A DNA stretch of 64,000 bases. It comes from Comamonadaceae bacterium (lineage in GTDB: Bacteria; Pseudomonadota; Gammaproteobacteria; Burkholderiales; Burkholderiaceae_C). The notes under the pieces were generated by a model. The model made no database searches and was not told the DNA's origin. It saw only the letters and a program-made list of their open reading frames with translations. The stretch covers positions 1 to 64,000 of the forward strand of contig CANCUP010000002.1 in NCBI GenBank assembly GCA_947381325.1, written 5' to 3'. Below are positions 26,708 through 34,589 of the stretch, piece by piece. The position numbers and the translations under genes were made by a program. Each line of letters begins with the position of its first letter. The first letter of the stretch is position 1.

Positions 26708-29077
26708 TCAGTTCTTGAACAAATCGAGGATGCGTTTTTTCTCGTCGTTGGCGGGCAACTCGCTGGGGCTTGATTTGCTCTCCAGCCCCAAGCTGCTCAC
26801 CCCACCGCCACGGCTGTATTCGCTGTAGAACCACTCTCCGCCTTCATGCGTGAGGCCGGCAGGTGGTGTGGGTTCGGCAACGGGCACGTTTTGCAGGGCG
26901 TGCTGCATGTAGCTGATCCACACCGGCAAGCTCAGGCCGCCACCGGTTTCGCGGTCACCCAGCTTGCGTGGCGTGTCGTAGCCAATCCAGGTCACGGCGG
27001 TGAGCGTGGGGTGGTAGCCCGCAAACCAGGCGTCCATGGAGTCGTTGGTGGTGCCTGTCTTGCCATAAATGTCGGGCCGCTTCAAGGTGGCTTGGGCGCG
27101 TGCGGCGGTGCCTGAGCGGGTGACCTCTTGCAACAAGCTGGTCATCACAAACGCGTTGCGCGCGTCGATGCCGCGCACCGACTCGTCCAACTCGGGCGGT
27201 GTGAACTCAGACAACACCTTGCCCGTTTGGTCGGTGACTTTGCTGATCAGGAAAGGGTTGATGCGGTAGCCGCCATTGGCAAACACCGAATAGCCGGTGG
27301 CCATTTGCATGGGGGTGACCGAGCCCGCGCCCAGCGCCATGGTCAGGTAGGGCGGGTGTTTGTCGGCTTCAAACCCAAAGTGGGTGATCCACTGCTGCGC
27401 GTTTTGTGCGCCTACCGCTTGCAGCACGCGGATCGAGACCATGTTCTTTGACTTGGCCAAGCCTTTGCGCAAGGTCATGGGACCGTCGAAGGTGCCGTCG
27501 TAGTTTTTGGGCTCCCACGGTTGGCCGCCGGTCACGCTGGCGTCAAAAAACAGCGGCGCATCGTTGACCACGGTGGCGGGCGTGAAGCCCTTTTCCAGAG
27601 CCGCAGAGTAAATGAAAGGCTTGAAGCTGGAGCCCGGTTGGCGCCAGGCTTGGGTCACGTGGTTGAACTTGTTTTTGTCAAAGTCAAAGCCGCCCACCAG
27701 CGCATGGATGGCGCCATTGCGTGGGTCGACCGACACAAATGCGCCTTCGACTTCGGGCAGTTGGGTGATTTCCCACGCGCCTTTGGCAGTTTTGGTGACG
27801 CGAATCAAGGCGCCCGGGCGCAAGCGGATGTTGGGCGGTGCTTTGTCAGACAGGCCCGACTGCACCGGCTGCAAGCCTTCGCCGGTGATCTCCAACACCT
27901 CGCTGTTTTGCCGCACCGCACGCACCTTTTTCGGCCCGGCTTCTAGCACCACAGCGGCCAGCAAATCACCCTTGTCGCCTTGCTCGATCAAGGCGTCGTC
28001 GATGGCGTCTTCTTGTTCTGCCGGGTTACTGGGCAGCGTGATGAATTTTTCGGGGCCACGGTAGTGCTGGCGGCGCTCGTAGTCCATGATGCCGCGACGC
28101 AAGGCGTGGTAAGCCGATTGCTGGTCACTGGCGCGAATGGTGGTGTACACGTTGAGACCCCGGGTGTAAATGTCGGGTCCGTATTGCGCAAACATCAATT
28201 GGCGCGCCATCTCAGCCACGTATTCGGCATGGGTGTTTTGGCTGCTCATGGCGGTGCGAATTTTGAGCTCTTCTTGTTTGGCGGCGGCGGCTTCGGCTTT
28301 GGTGATGAAGCCGTTTTCTTCCATGCGCTCAATGATGTAGAGCTGGCGTGAGCGTGCCCGCTTGGGGTTGGCAATGGGGTTGTAGGCCGAAGGGGCCTTG
28401 GGCAAACCGGCGAGCATGGCGGCTTCTGCGATGGTGATGTTTTTCAGGGGCTTGCCAAAGTAGGCTTCGGAGGCTGCGGCAAAACCGTAGGCGCGGTTGC
28501 CCAAATAAATTTGGTTCAGGTAGATCTCAAAAATCTGGTCTTTGCTGAGTAGGTGCTCGAGCTTGGTGGTGAGCAAGATTTCGTAGATTTTTCGGGTGAA
28601 GGTTTTCTCAGACGACAGGTACACGTTGCGCGCCACCTGCATGGTGATGGTGGACGCGCCTTGGCTTTTGGCACGGCCCAAGTTGGCCAAGCTGGCGCGC
28701 AGCAAGCCGATGTAGTCCACACCGCCGTGTTGGTAAAAACGGGCATCTTCAATCGCCAGCACCGCGTCTTTCATGACCTTGGGAATGTCTTTGAAGGGTG
28801 TGAGGTTGCGCCGCTCTTCGCCAAACTCGCCAATCTGTGTGCCCTCGACGGAATAGACCCGCATCGACAGCTTGGGTCGGTAGTCCGACAAGTCGGTCAC
28901 ATCGGGCAATTGGGGATAGGCCATGGCCAGCGCCACGCCCACCAACAAGGCCACCACCACCAGACCAGCGGCGGCGATGCCAAAGGCCCACAGCAACAAC
29001 TGACCAGCCAGTGAGCGGGGCGCTGCGCCAGCAGCGGCGTGTTCTTGCGAACTTTCGGGGGGGTGCTTGTGGGCCAT
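26708..29077 (-). CDS. mrcA: Penicillin-binding protein 1A (transglycosylase/transpeptidase)
   Basis: AIEDARFYQHGGVDYIGLLRA; QGASTITMQVARN; RQPGSSFKPFIYSAALE; GKTGTTND. Confidence 0.95.
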   Translation of the reverse strand: MAHKHPPESSQEHAAAGAAPRSLAGQLLLWAFGIAAAGLVVVALLVGVALAMAYPQLPDVTDLSDYRPKLSMRVYSVEGTQIGEFGEERRNLTPFKDIPKVMKDAVLAIEDARFYQHGGVDYIGLLRASLANLGRAKSQGASTITMQVARNVYLSSEKTFTRKIYEILLTTKLEHLLSKDQIFEIYLNQIYLGNRAYGFAAASEAYFGKPLKNITIAEAAMLAGLPKAPSAYNPIANPKRARSRQLYIIERMEENGFITKAEAAAAKQEELKIRTAMSSQNTHAEYVAEMARQLMFAQYGPDIYTRGLNVYTTIRASDQQSAYHALRRGIMDYERRQHYRGPEKFITLPSNPAEQEDAIDDALIEQGDKGDLLAAVVLEAGPKKVRAVRQNSEVLEITGEGLQPVQSGLSDKAPPNIRLRPGALIRVTKTAKGAWEITQLPEVEGAFVSVDPRNGAIHALVGGFDFDKNKFNHVTQAWRQPGSSFKPFIYSAALEKGFTPATVVNDAPLFFDASVTGGQPWEPKNYDGTFDGPMTLRKGLAKSKNMVSIRVLQAVGAQNAQQWITHFGFEADKHPPYLTMALGAGSVTPMQMATGYSVFANGGYRINPFLISKVTDQTGKVLSEFTPPELDESVRGIDARNAFVMTSLLQEVTRSGTAARAQATLKRPDIYGKTGTTNDSMDAWFAGYHPTLTAVTWIGYDTPRKLGDRETGGGLSLPVWISYMQHALQNVPVAEPTPPAGLTHEGGEWFYSEYSRGGGVSSLGLESKSSPSELPANDEKKRILDLFKN

Positions 29078-29205
29078 ATATAGGGGGAATTATAAAAAAC
29101 GCGCCTTGATCAAAAAATCTCTGAGTCAAGCGCGTCAAAGCCCATACCTGGGGTGCTCAAAATCTGCGGGCTTTCACCCCCCCCCGTCTATTTAAAAGAG
29201 TCACC

Positions 29206-30402
29206 ATGCGTTTCCCGTCTTGGCTGCTGTCGCCTTCTCCAAAGCGTCAATGCGTGGCAGGACTGGATCTGAGCCCCCATGGGGCTTGGCTGGTGGTCTT
29301 GAATGGCAGCTTGTCAGGGGCTGAGACCGTGGATTGCTGTGAGTTGCTGGACCCGCCCGAGGGTTTGCTCCAGGGCGCTCAACTGCTGGACCCTTTTGCG
29401 CTGGGACATTGGCTCAAGCGCTGGTTGAACGACAAACACCTGTTTCCCGATGGGCTGTGCTTGGCCGTGGAAGATGCCTGGCTGACGCGCCAAGTGGTGA
29501 GCTTGTCCGCGCAGTTGTCCGAGCGAGATGTCGCTTTCCAACTGGCCGCCGAATTGCCGTTGGCAGAGTTTGCGCAGGCGTCTCCACTGTGTTGGGCCTA
29601 CACACCGTCAGCACCCCAGGGGAGGAACCCGTCAGCTGCTGTGCATGCCTATGCCTTGGCTTGGTTGGCGCAAGAACCCGTGCAAGCTTTGATCAGCTTG
29701 GCCAAAGCGGCGGGTATTCGCGCTTGGGTGGTGGAGCCTCGATCCGATGCCACCCATCGCCCTGAGCAACTGGCCAAGCATGTCTTGCGCCCTTCTGCGC
29801 CCGTGGCGAAAGCTGCGCAAGCCGCGTATGGCTTGGCTCTGTCGGCGTGGGCTGAGACGGGCATGAATTTTTTACCCCACCGGCGCTGGGCGCGGCAACG
29901 TCGTCAACGCGCTTGGCTGCAGCGCCTGAGTTGGATGCTGGCCCTGGGTGTGAGCCTGGGTGGTGTGGCGACCGCTTGGTTGGCCTATGGGGCACAGTTG
30001 CAACCAGCCCTTGTGGCGGATCAAGCGCTGATTGCTGAGCGTTTAGCCCGGGCGCGTGACACCCAGCAATCCTTGCAAGCGACGCATAAACAGTGGACGA
30101 CCCAATGGCAATGGGCGCAGGCGCAGCAAGCCCAGCAGCGCCAAACCGTCTTGTGGCACGCGGGCTTGGCCGATGCCGGTGTGTGGGTGTCGCAGCTGCG
30201 CCAGCACCAATCACACTGGGTGGTTCAGGGTGAAGCACTGGGCGCTGACCAGGTGCGGCAGTGGGCAGCCCAACTGGCGCAGCAACCGGTGTGGCAAAAC
30301 CCGCCTGAGGTGCACCAGTTGCAGTTCAAGCGCTCAGCTTCGAACGGCGGCGGCTGGGTTTGGCACTTTCGATTAGAAGCTGACCTGAAGGAGGCACGTT
30401 GA
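29206..30402 (+). CDS. Type IV pilus assembly PilM-PilN fusion-like protein
   Basis: N-terminal PilM-like VAGLDLSPHGAWLVVL...; then PilN-type MNFLPHRRWARQRRQRAWLQRLSWMLALGV TM segment at about aa 220; divergent from mrcA and followed by PilO/P and PilQ. Confidence 0.78.
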   Translation: MRFPSWLLSPSPKRQCVAGLDLSPHGAWLVVLNGSLSGAETVDCCELLDPPEGLLQGAQLLDPFALGHWLKRWLNDKHLFPDGLCLAVEDAWLTRQVVSLSAQLSERDVAFQLAAELPLAEFAQASPLCWAYTPSAPQGRNPSAAVHAYALAWLAQEPVQALISLAKAAGIRAWVVEPRSDATHRPEQLAKHVLRPSAPVAKAAQAAYGLALSAWAETGMNFLPHRRWARQRRQRAWLQRLSWMLALGVSLGGVATAWLAYGAQLQPALVADQALIAERLARARDTQQSLQATHKQWTTQWQWAQAQQAQQRQTVLWHAGLADAGVWVSQLRQHQSHWVVQGEALGADQVRQWAAQLAQQPVWQNPPEVHQLQFKRSASNGGGWVWHFRLEADLKEAR

Positions 30403-31388
30403 TGCGTGACCTGCACCAAGCCTTGTTGGGTGCATGGCGTGCCTGGGTGGCATGGGCCGACGCCAACCGCACGTCCTCGGGATGGGCCGCACTCTTTGTG
30501 GGCCTGCTGCTGACCCTGCCCTGGCTGCTGTCTGCGTTGCAAGATGTTGTGGCTGTGCAAGACAGCTTGGTGCAGTTGGCCCAGCAGCAGCACGAATTGC
30601 GGGTCTTGGAGGAGGGCAACATCGCGCTGGCGCGGCGGGTCAGCGCCGAGGCCACGCTGCCAACCATGCCCGACGGTGTGGCGCAGCTGACCCTGTCGGC
30701 CCATGCGCAGGGTTTGCAAACTTCGGGTGTGTCGGTCGGCAAACCTACCCCCGTGGTCACGTCTGATCGCATGAATGTGCAGCAAGTGCCGGTCAGCTTA
30801 CGGGTCCAAGGCGCTTGGGCAGATTGGCAGCATTGGATCGCCCGCTGGCCCGAGGCCTTGCCTGGCGTGAGCTTGACGGGGCTGGAGCTTCAAGCCCAAG
30901 CCAGTGGCGATGTGGTGGCTGACATGGCGCTGTGGGTGCTGCAACGCCCAGTCTCTTGGGCGGCTCAACAGCTGAGCGCCGAGCCGGGTGCTCCTGGGCT
31001 GCCACCGACGGGTTGGGCGCTGGATGCCTCAGCATGGGGTCGGGTGCAGCAGCAGTCGCTTCAGCACGCAAGCTTTGCGCCTTGGCGAGCCAGTGAATGG
31101 AACCGAAAGCGTCAGCCCCTTGAGTCGGTGGCGCGTGAGCAGGTGCACTACACCGGGCGCCTCGAACAAGCGGGGCGCCAAGTGGCTTTGTTGCGGGTGA
31201 CGCAACACGAGCAGGCGGCGCTGCCCGAGTTTCACACGGTGGGGGTGGGCGCTTATGTGGGGCACGACATGGGGCGCATTGAGGCCATCGAACCCCTGCA
31301 GTTGCGTCTGCGTGAGTTGGTGCGCGACGCCAACGGCGCATGGCGTGCACGGACCGTCTTCATGCCATTCAAGGAGGGTGGGCCATGA
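30402..31388 (+). CDS. Type IV pilus PilO-PilP fusion-like protein
   Basis: N-terminal TM plus coiled coil (PilO-like); C-terminal YTGRLEQAGRQVALLRV...HTVGVGAYVGHDMGRIEAIEPLQLRLRELVRD PilP-like; ATG overlaps the previous stop. Confidence 0.72.
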   Translation: MRDLHQALLGAWRAWVAWADANRTSSGWAALFVGLLLTLPWLLSALQDVVAVQDSLVQLAQQQHELRVLEEGNIALARRVSAEATLPTMPDGVAQLTLSAHAQGLQTSGVSVGKPTPVVTSDRMNVQQVPVSLRVQGAWADWQHWIARWPEALPGVSLTGLELQAQASGDVVADMALWVLQRPVSWAAQQLSAEPGAPGLPPTGWALDASAWGRVQQQSLQHASFAPWRASEWNRKRQPLESVAREQVHYTGRLEQAGRQVALLRVTQHEQAALPEFHTVGVGAYVGHDMGRIEAIEPLQLRLRELVRDANGAWRARTVFMPFKEGGP

Positions 31389-32893
31389 GGCTGCTGGTGT
31401 CTGTCTTTGGGTTGCGTCGGTGGCGCTGCTGGTGGGTGTGTTGGGCCTTTGCTGCGAGCCACCTTCATGCGCAAGAACCGATACCGGTCTACAGCGGCAA
31501 ACCCTTGTCTCTGAACTTTCAGACCATCGAGGTTCGCACCGCCTTGCAAATCTTGGCCGATTTCACCGGGCTCAACATCGTCACCTCCGACAGCGTGACC
31601 GGTTCATTGACCCTGCGATTGCAGCAGGTGCCTTGGGATCAAGTGCTGGACATCATCACGCAAGCCAAAGGCTTGAGCCAGCGTCGCCAAGGCAATGTGA
31701 TTTGGGTGGCGCCCCGCGCTGAGGTGGCTGCACGCGACAAGCTCGAGTTTGAAAGCCGCATCGCCCTGCAAAACCTCGAACCGCTGCAGACCCGCAGCTT
31801 TGTGCTCAATCACGCCAAGGCCCTGGATGTGGTGGGGCAAATTCAAGGCACGGCGGCCGCGCCGCTCTCGCCTTCTTTGCCGGGTTGGGGCAGCAACTTG
31901 GGCACTGGCAGTTATGCCAGCGCCGCGCAGGGTGTCGCCGCCATGGGCAGTGCCATCGGCAGTTCTGCGCGCCTGTTGAGCGCGCGCGGCAGCGTCATGG
32001 CTGAGCCGCGCACCAACCAACTGTTTGTCACCGACATCCCCATGCGCTTGGACCAAGTGACCGAGATGATTGCCAAGATCGATGTGCCGCTGCGCCAAGT
32101 GATGATCGAGGCGCGCATTGTGCAAGCCAGCGACAGCTTTGGCCGAACCTTGGGCGTGCGTCTGGGCGGCTTGGGACAAACCGGCGCCCAAACGGTGGTG
32201 GGCCCCACCGCTGCCAACACCCTCGCCAATGCCAACCCCACCGCCATGCAGGGCACCAGCTTCAACATCGCCGACAAAGCCCTCAACACCTCTGGACAGT
32301 TCGTCAACTTGCCTGCGGCTGCCATCAACGGCTTTGAGTCGGCCAGCTTTGCGGTGTCGATCTTCAATGCGTCGAAAAACCAGTTTTTGAATTTGGAGTT
32401 GTCTGCGCTGGAGGCCGATGGCAAAGGCAAGGTGGTGTCGAGTCCACGGGTGGTCACCGCCGACCAAACCAAGGCCATCATCGAGCAAGGCACCGAGCTG
32501 CCTTACCAAGTGGCTGCGGCCAGCGGCGCCACCTCGATCGCCTTTCGCAAGGCCAACCTCAAACTCGAAGTCACACCGCAAATCACCCCCGAGGGCGGCA
32601 TTGTGTTGGATTTGGACATTCACAAAGACAGCGTCGGGCAAACCACCCCGGCAGGGTTTGCGATTGACACCAAACACGTGTCTACCCAAGTGCGGGTGGA
32701 CAACGGGGGCACCGTCATGATCGGTGGCATCTACGAGAGCAGCGAGCAAGACGACGAGTACAAGGTGCCGTTTTTAGCCGATGTGCCGGTGCTGGGCACT
32801 CTGTTTAAAAACCGCCGTCGCAGCACCTCCAAGCAAGAGTTGCTGGTGTTCATAACCCCTAAAATACTCGACCAAAGTGCATCTGCACGTTAA
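31385..32893 (+). CDS. pilQ: Type IV pilus secretin PilQ (short form)
   Basis: VYSGKPLSLNFQTIEVRTALQILADFTGLNIVTSDSV; secretin motif VPFLADVPVLGTLFKNRRRSTSKQELLVFITPKIL. Confidence 0.92.
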   Translation: MRLLVSVFGLRRWRCWWVCWAFAASHLHAQEPIPVYSGKPLSLNFQTIEVRTALQILADFTGLNIVTSDSVTGSLTLRLQQVPWDQVLDIITQAKGLSQRRQGNVIWVAPRAEVAARDKLEFESRIALQNLEPLQTRSFVLNHAKALDVVGQIQGTAAAPLSPSLPGWGSNLGTGSYASAAQGVAAMGSAIGSSARLLSARGSVMAEPRTNQLFVTDIPMRLDQVTEMIAKIDVPLRQVMIEARIVQASDSFGRTLGVRLGGLGQTGAQTVVGPTAANTLANANPTAMQGTSFNIADKALNTSGQFVNLPAAAINGFESASFAVSIFNASKNQFLNLELSALEADGKGKVVSSPRVVTADQTKAIIEQGTELPYQVAAASGATSIAFRKANLKLEVTPQITPEGGIVLDLDIHKDSVGQTTPAGFAIDTKHVSTQVRVDNGGTVMIGGIYESSEQDDEYKVPFLADVPVLGTLFKNRRRSTSKQELLVFITPKILDQSASAR

Positions 32894-32904
32894 GAAAGCA
32901 CACC

Positions 32905-33447
32905 TTGTTGGTTTTGGTCGGTCTGCCAGGGTCTGGCAAATCCACCGTGGGGCGGCAGCTCGCCCGACGGCTCTCTATCCCTTTCGTTGATTCGGATCAT
33001 GCGATTGAGCAGCGCCTAGGCTGCTCGATCCGCGACTTTTTCGAGCGCGAAGGGGAGGAGCGTTTTCGTGACGTGGAAGCCGAGGTGCTCGACGACTTGA
33101 GCCAACGCCCGCGCGCGGTGTTGTCCACCGGTGGCGGGTCTGTGTTGCGGCCCGAAAACCGCCAGCGCTTGCATGAACGCGGCCAGGTGTTTTACTTGCG
33201 CTCCACCCCCGAAGAAGTGTTTCGCCGTTTGCGCCATGACCAAAACCGCCCTCTCTTGCAAGTGGCCGATCCGCTCGGGCGTTTGCGCGAGTTGTTTGCC
33301 ATCCGTGACCCGCTCTACCGCGAAGCGGCGCACTATGTGATTGAAACCGGGCGCCCCACCGTGGCGTCGCTGGTCAACATGATCGTGTCGCAACTGGAGC
33401 TGGCCGGCCAGCTGGGCCCCTCCCCAAGTTCTGCCTTGCGCTCTTAG
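32905..33447 (+). CDS. aroK: Shikimate kinase
   Basis: [47 protein letters not shown] start inferred. Confidence 0.94.
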
Positions 33448-33476: not shown

Positions 33477-34589
33477 ATGTCTGCTTCTCCGGTTTCTTCC
33501 CCCTCTGCGGTGACTGTGTCGATCGATTTGGGCGAGCGCAGCTACCCCATCCTGATTGGCACCCAACTCCTCGACCAAGCCAGCACCTGGGCGGATTTGC
33601 CCAAAGCCAGCAGCGCCGTGATCGTCACCAACGACACCGTGGGGCCGCTCTATGTGGCGCGCTTGCAAGCGGCTTTGGCGGGCCAGTACCCGCACATCCA
33701 CACGGTGGTGCTGCCCGATGGCGAAAGTCACAAAGACTGGCCAACGCTGAATCAAATTTTTGACCTGTTGCTGGCCCAAGGTTGCGACCGCAAAACCGTG
33801 TTGTTTGCCTTGGGCGGCGGTGTGGTGGGCGACATGACGGGCTTTGCTGCCGCCTGCTACATGCGCGGTGTGCCTTTTGTGCAAGTGCCCACCACCTTGC
33901 TGGCCCAGGTGGACTCGTCGGTGGGGGGCAAAACCGCCATCAACCATCCGCTGGGCAAGAACATGGTGGGTGCTTTCTACCAACCCCAGCGCGTGGTGTG
34001 CGATTTGGACACCTTGCAAACCTTGCCGGCGCGTGAAATGAGTGCGGGCTTGGCCGAAATCATCAAGTACGGACCGATTGCTGACATGGCGTTTCTCGAC
34101 TGGATCGACGCCCACCTCGACGCCCTGATGGCACGTGACCCCAAAGCACTGGCCCACGCCGTGCAACGCAGCTGTGAAATCAAGGCCTGGGTGGTGGGTC
34201 AAGACGAACGCGAGTCGGGCCTGCGCGCCATCCTCAACTTTGGCCACACCTTTGGCCACGCCATCGAAGCCGGCCTGGGCTTTGGGGTCTGGTTGCATGG
34301 CGAGGCTGTGGGTTGTGGCATGGTGATGGCGGCGCATTTGTCGCAACGCTTGGGGCTGGTCGATGCGGCGTTTGTCAGCCGTTTCACCGCCTTGCTGGCG
34401 CGGGCCGGTTTGCCCACGGTGGGCCCACAACTGGGCGTCGAGGCTTACCTGCACCACATGCGGGTGGACAAAAAAGCCGAGGCCGGCGACATCCGCTTTG
34501 TGCTGATCAACCAGCCCGGCAGCGCGGTGGTACGCGGTGCACCTGACGACGTGGTGGCTGAGGTCATCACCGCATGCTGCCAAGGATGA
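33477..34589 (+). CDS. aroB: 3-dehydroquinate synthase
   Basis: [55 protein letters not shown]. Confidence 0.97.

Follow-up and report, generated by a model that had tools for sequence, protein, structure and literature searches.

A PilM-PilN fusion with a half-length PilM in a type IVa pilus locus of a Comamonadaceae bacterium

The fused gene and its locus

The window, by which we mean the whole analysed stretch of 64,000 nucleotides, contains an open reading frame on the forward strand (29206-30402; 398 aa plus stop) that starts with ATG, has no internal stop and joins parts of the type IVa pilus proteins PilM and PilN in one chain. Residues 13-186 (29242-29763) align to residues 1-172 of classical PilM proteins. 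Within this part, the codon of Trp28 (29287-29289) occupies the alignment column of the ATP-binding lysine, which is Lys26 in Thermus PilM. Further downstream, still on the forward strand, follow the motif GLAL (29830-29841) as a remnant of the PilM C-terminal helix (CGLAMRRF in classical proteins), an eight-residue linker (29842-29865) and the motif NFLPHR (29866-29883), which corresponds to the peptide through which PilN docks into PilM (PMC5805733, PMC7613929). An in-frame ATG (Met220, 29863-29865) lies at the expected start of PilN and is a possible internal start. Next to these motifs, there is a predicted transmembrane segment (residues 241-259, 29926-29982) with a hydropathy of 1.55, the values in relatives being 1.4-2.2, and a domain match to the periplasmic domain of PilN (PF05137, 30172-30381).

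The following open reading frame (30399-31388, forward strand; 329 aa) is a fusion as well. Its N-terminal part consists of a transmembrane segment and a PilO-like region (hhalign to PilO 87.6%, E = 3.5e-6), and its C-terminal end is a PilP domain (residues 227-320; PF04351, E = 9.4e-15). It is followed on the same strand by a short form of the secretin PilQ (31385-32893; TIGR02515, E = 3.4e-146) and by the synteny markers aroK (shikimate kinase, 32905-33447) and aroB (3-dehydroquinate synthase, 33477-34589), which were assigned from their sequences and from the gene order usual for this locus. On the other side, a divergently oriented gene for a ponA-type penicillin-binding protein (26708-29077, reverse strand), which adjoins the pil genes in most of the loci, fixes the synteny. 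The order in the window, ponA-[MN]-[OP]-Q-aroK-aroB, is that of a type IVa PilMNOPQ operon, ponA-pilMNOPQ-aroKB being the usual arrangement in beta- and gammaproteobacteria. Just upstream of the fused gene, nine consecutive C at 29177-29185 form the longest C/G run in the window. We considered this tract as a phase-variation switch and rejected the idea, since it is not conserved in the two nearest relatives (L006, L007).

Identity of the two halves and the missing lobe of PilM

Searched as a single sequence, the PilM half matches TIGR01175 with E = 0.0075 over model positions 2-174 of 348. The score of 15.3 bits is below the curated cut-off of 133, and none of the genomes with a fusion has a PilM above this cut-off. 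Other members of the family match the same model directly (E = 3e-14, positions 3-174). When the profile of 18 fused proteins was compared with that of 30 classical PilMs from the same GTDB family, hhalign gave 97.9% (E = 3.2e-13) over PilM 1-172 of 349, while the column-shuffled PilM control reached 0.1%. The PilN half falls just below the cut-off of PF05137 (E = 1.7e-4, 22.0 bits versus 22.8). However, residues 220-395 align to PilN 6-186 of 220 with 97.9% (E = 3.9e-13) in a comparison with a profile built from the PilNs of the same loci as the classical PilMs, so that the docking motif, the predicted transmembrane segment and, by profile, the PilN domain are all present. Searching the PDB with the full-length fused sequence gave no genuine match, and an AlphaFold2 prediction from only three sequences had a mean pLDDT of 38.7 and a pTM of 0.20, values too low for the model to be of use. 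The sequence-only reading had proposed a PilM-PilN fusion in one open reading frame. The profile comparisons bear this out by assigning the two halves to PilM and PilN, and the fusion is found in 18 genomes.

In actin-like folds, domain I is built from the first half of the chain together with the C-terminal helix, domain II lies in the middle of the second half, and the nucleotide sits between the two. According to the profile alignment, approximately positions 175-335 of PilM (about 160 residues) have no counterpart in the fused proteins and only the last helix is retained. Judged from this alignment, the second lobe of PilM is missing and with it the two-lobed actin-like fold. The earlier suspicion that PilM lacks part of its ATPase fold was therefore justified, since the match stops at PilM residue 172 of 349 and the lysine is lost. 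The ATP-binding lysine column holds lysine in 12 of 12 classical PilMs and in none of the 31 reduced forms that cover it, and Lys26 of Thermus PilM is required for ATP binding (PMC6325625). The fused protein would therefore not be expected to bind ATP. A nucleotide-free PilM is plausible, because the K26A variant of Thermus PilM still binds the motor PilF and, together with PilN, still stimulates it (PMC6325625).

The part that is kept probably corresponds to the first lobe of PilM (subdomains IA and IC) plus the last helix and would hold the docking cleft for PilN. Since the N-terminal peptide of PilN binds to the cleft between IA and IC, within domain I (PMC7613929), the fused protein has retained the docking half and lost the one that closes the nucleotide site. 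The half-PilM is thus predicted to adopt the fold of PilM domain I. Among the 18 fused proteins, the mean identity is 100% in GLAL and 88% in NFLPHR, compared to a protein average of 64%.

Reduction of the alignment complex within one genus

The bacterium, a freshwater organism, belongs to a large GTDB genus, possibly Limnohabitans, of the family in which Comamonadaceae are placed. In our survey of this family, 187 of 201 genomes possess a PilM above the curated cut-off; at E ≤ 1e-12, PilM is matched in 122 of the 126 genera. Within the genus of the window, a PilM above the cut-off occurs in one of 84 genomes (G038), where it is located on a 5.3-kb contig that may be contamination and was left out when placing the ancestral state. 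Four stages can be distinguished at the locus. Classical, separate genes for M, N, O, P and Q are present in the outgroup G069 and in G038. Ten genomes have a short M (202-271 aa), an N and a fused OP. In the third stage, represented by the window and 17 others, a fused MN of approximately 400 aa is combined with the fused OP, so that the survey of relatives that had been suggested along with the first reading revealed 18 genomes of the genus with fused MN. Finally, G004, G117, G001 and G010 have a single open reading frame of about 303 aa in front of PilQ (L071-L074; for instance 1577-2491 of L072, reverse strand). Its product matches the M half plus the PilN motif and transmembrane segment of the fused family (96.5%) as well as the PilP portion of the OP fusion (99.3%; E = 5e-22 with the Pfam PilP model), and profile comparison detected neither the periplasmic part of PilN nor a PilO part in it.

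In the tree of the neighbouring ponA, all reduced forms group together (support 99/99). The MN-fused genomes and G040 constitute a group (100/99) within which the one-ORF genomes fall, and G103, which possesses a longer MN fusion, is placed among the unfused genomes (95/95). Because of these placements, shortening of PilM and fusion of OP came first and the MN fusion later. According to the tree, the MN fusion arose at least twice, G103 being the second event, and the PilO-PilP fusion is older in this genus than the PilM-PilN fusion. The longer fusions of 486-507 aa are found in G118 and G103 (L069, L070); the proteins of G040 and of G103/G118 match the fused family (97.4% and 95.7%, respectively), not classical PilM or PilN directly. 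The sequence-only reading hence needs an amendment: PilM was shortened before it was fused, and the next open reading frame is fused, too. Therefore, the alignment complex should be studied as a shrinking whole.

In another genus (g152), we noticed in G318 a 395-aa candidate for a PilM-PilN fusion together with a PilO-PilP fusion (L203, 3658-4845, reverse strand). The candidate matches PilN with 74.7% (E = 2.6e-5) and PilM weakly (E = 0.026 over 30 residues). This is likely a third, independent fusion; in its congener G234, M and N are separate.

The motor seems to be affected as well. In the genome of the window, the pilBCD locus is located on contig C98, and its PilB is no longer than 436 aa (L107, 8242-9531). 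The PilB open frames in genomes of the fused clade comprise 401-485 aa, and the MshEN domain is absent in the two scanned proteins of this clade (from the window genome and one other). G043, which is at the short-M stage, has a PilB of 574 aa with MshEN (L131). The N-terminal ND1 domain is the binding site of GspL on GspE and has been modelled as the binding site of PilM (PMC8389850), so that the reduction of the motor apparently went along with that of the coupler. In Thermus, removal of the N-terminal domains of the motor leaves PilMN binding intact, and loss of the last one abolishes stimulation (PMC6325625).

The genus might thus preserve the natural stages through which the type IVa alignment complex shrank: four proteins, then three, then two and in the end a single one of about 303 aa, made up of a half-PilM, the PilN motif with its transmembrane segment, and PilP. 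If so, a working DNA-uptake pilus that crosses a secretin could do without PilO, without the ferredoxin domains of PilN and PilO, and without both the second lobe of PilM and its ability to bind ATP. We regard this extended interpretation as tentative, its chances being somewhat short of even. It is of special interest, since the role of nucleotide binding by PilM and of the individual PilMNOP parts in pilus assembly is still disputed. Here, parts were removed or fused singly at a fixed locus and sister species exist at each stage, which makes every stage directly testable. Moreover, the fusion repeats, recently and traceably, the step that gave GspL in type II secretion.

Alternative explanations, known systems and function

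A merger of two open reading frames by a sequencing or assembly error, which had been named as a caveat beforehand, could be suspected, as the assembly of the window genome is fragmented (242 contigs, 88.9% complete). This is practically out of the question, because the same one-ORF fusion exists in 18 genomes, several of which are closed single-contig genomes (e.g. G050 and G058). In addition, the spacing between GLAL and NFLPHR is eight residues in 18 of 18 fused proteins, close to the nine expected from an intact PilM C-terminus followed by an intact PilN N-terminus, and most junctions lack a start codon. The same junctions speak against a second possibility, namely that the fusion is translated but that free PilN is also or mainly produced from the ATG at 29863, or that the product is proteolysed, so that the parts stay separate. 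The window, G059 and G031 do keep an ATG exactly at the old pilN start, and three or four other fused genomes have GTG or TTG there, so that some free PilN could be made from this ATG in the subclade of the window. Most fused genomes, however, have a non-start codon at this position (such as GCG, ACT, TTT or GTC), where only the fusion can be made, and we consider a general separation of the parts unlikely. Only slightly less unlikely is a decaying, non-functional locus that shrinks on its way to being lost. The successive loss of PilM lobe II, the lysine and the N-terminal domain of PilB would fit to such a decay, as would the absence of PilO and the periplasmic domain of PilN in some relatives and, in part of the genus, of any PilQ match at E ≤ 1e-60. 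On the other hand, the dN/dS values against the two nearest relatives are 0.20-0.23 for the M half, 0.19-0.22 for the N half and 0.14 for PilQ, pointing to purifying selection on the fused gene. Furthermore, the open reading frames are intact in many species across a long divergence (33-38% identity), and ComEC is kept along with the locus.

The earlier reading had also mentioned a GspL-like protein as an alternative. GspL has the same overall architecture and size, i.e. an actin-like cytoplasmic domain, one transmembrane segment and a ferredoxin-like periplasmic domain in one chain of about 400 aa, and it has been described as the equivalent of a PilM-PilN fusion (PMC10191384). Nevertheless, it is very improbable that the protein is the GspL of a type II secretion system. 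It has no match to the T2SS-L Pfam models even at E = 10 and aligns to PilM and PilN encoded at this locus in sister genera; the adjoining secretin is PilQ (TIGR02515), the flanking genes are pil genes, and gene sets for type II secretion lie elsewhere in this genome, on contig C12 and probably on C39. In contrast to GspL, which belongs to another machine and another locus, the fusion in the window is recent, occurred within one genus with unfused sisters and retains the NFLPHR motif of PilN.

PilM-PilN fusions as such have precedents, GspL being one. Another one is the type IVa system of Clostridioides difficile, in which PilM and PilN are fused (PMC6916266); judged from this published statement, the likeness lies in the fusion itself, whereas C. 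difficile is a monoderm and has neither PilP nor a secretin. Classical PilM and PilN of Burkholderiales share with the fused protein the orthologous locus, the N-terminal lobe, the C-terminal helix and PilN, but they are encoded by separate genes, and their PilM of about 360 aa possesses both lobes and Lys26. The crystallised chimera of Pseudomonas PilM with PilN residues 1-12 (PDB 5EOU; PMC5805733) likewise joins the C-terminus of PilM to the docking peptide of PilN. It differs in being man-made and in comprising full-length PilM and just the first 12 residues of PilN. In the mainly open-access literature that we consulted, no PilM-PilN fusion is described for Burkholderiales, and no half-PilM, PilO-PilP fusion or single-chain M-N-P protein is described at all. 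What is new here is the half-PilM, together with the series of stages and its end point, the single chain.

Taken from sequence comparisons, the explanation that we prefer, with a probability of roughly 0.78, is that the open reading frame is the orthologue of pilM plus pilN at a standard type IVa locus and encodes one inner-membrane protein, nucleotide-free and competent for docking, that likely serves a competence pilus. The fused protein would form a cytoplasmic collar that carries no nucleotide and is joined for good, in a 1:1 ratio, to PilN's membrane anchor and periplasmic domain, with the docking peptide probably still residing in the PilM cleft of its own or a neighbouring chain. The PilM-PilN and PilO-PilP fusions would together form the link between the secretin PilQ on one side and PilC with the shortened motor PilB on the other, and the resulting machine most likely builds a pilus for DNA uptake. 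The expectation that the fusion alters stoichiometry and dynamics stands in part. The stoichiometry need not change, since current models already assume a 1:1 ratio of M to N; of greater weight is the loss of the nucleotide cleft and of PilM exchange. Against the preferred explanation we count that PilB seems to be without the domain bound by GspL-like proteins, which would leave the PilM part without an obvious contact.

A DNA-uptake pilus is favoured because ComEC co-occurs with PilQ. Among genomes of the genus with a completeness of 90% or more and a contamination of 5% or less, ComEC exceeds the cut-off in 22 of 25 PilQ-positive and in 0 of 15 PilQ-negative ones (Fisher test, p = 2e-8, with kinship ignored). 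The pilus may also have a role in twitching or adhesion.

Two further clusters of the same genome deserve mention. Contig C39 carries a second T2SS-like cluster, in which the protein at the position of GspL (506 aa; L109, 6295-7815) matches no Pfam family. The search for other pilM/pilN copies, which the sequence-only reading had recommended, revealed no other classical PilM in this genome and only an MSHA-type pair. This pair is part of a complete-looking MSHA-type locus on contig C42 (L027), which comprises an MshI-like PilM (323 aa), a separate PilN, pilins, MshE, MshG and a PilT-like ATPase.
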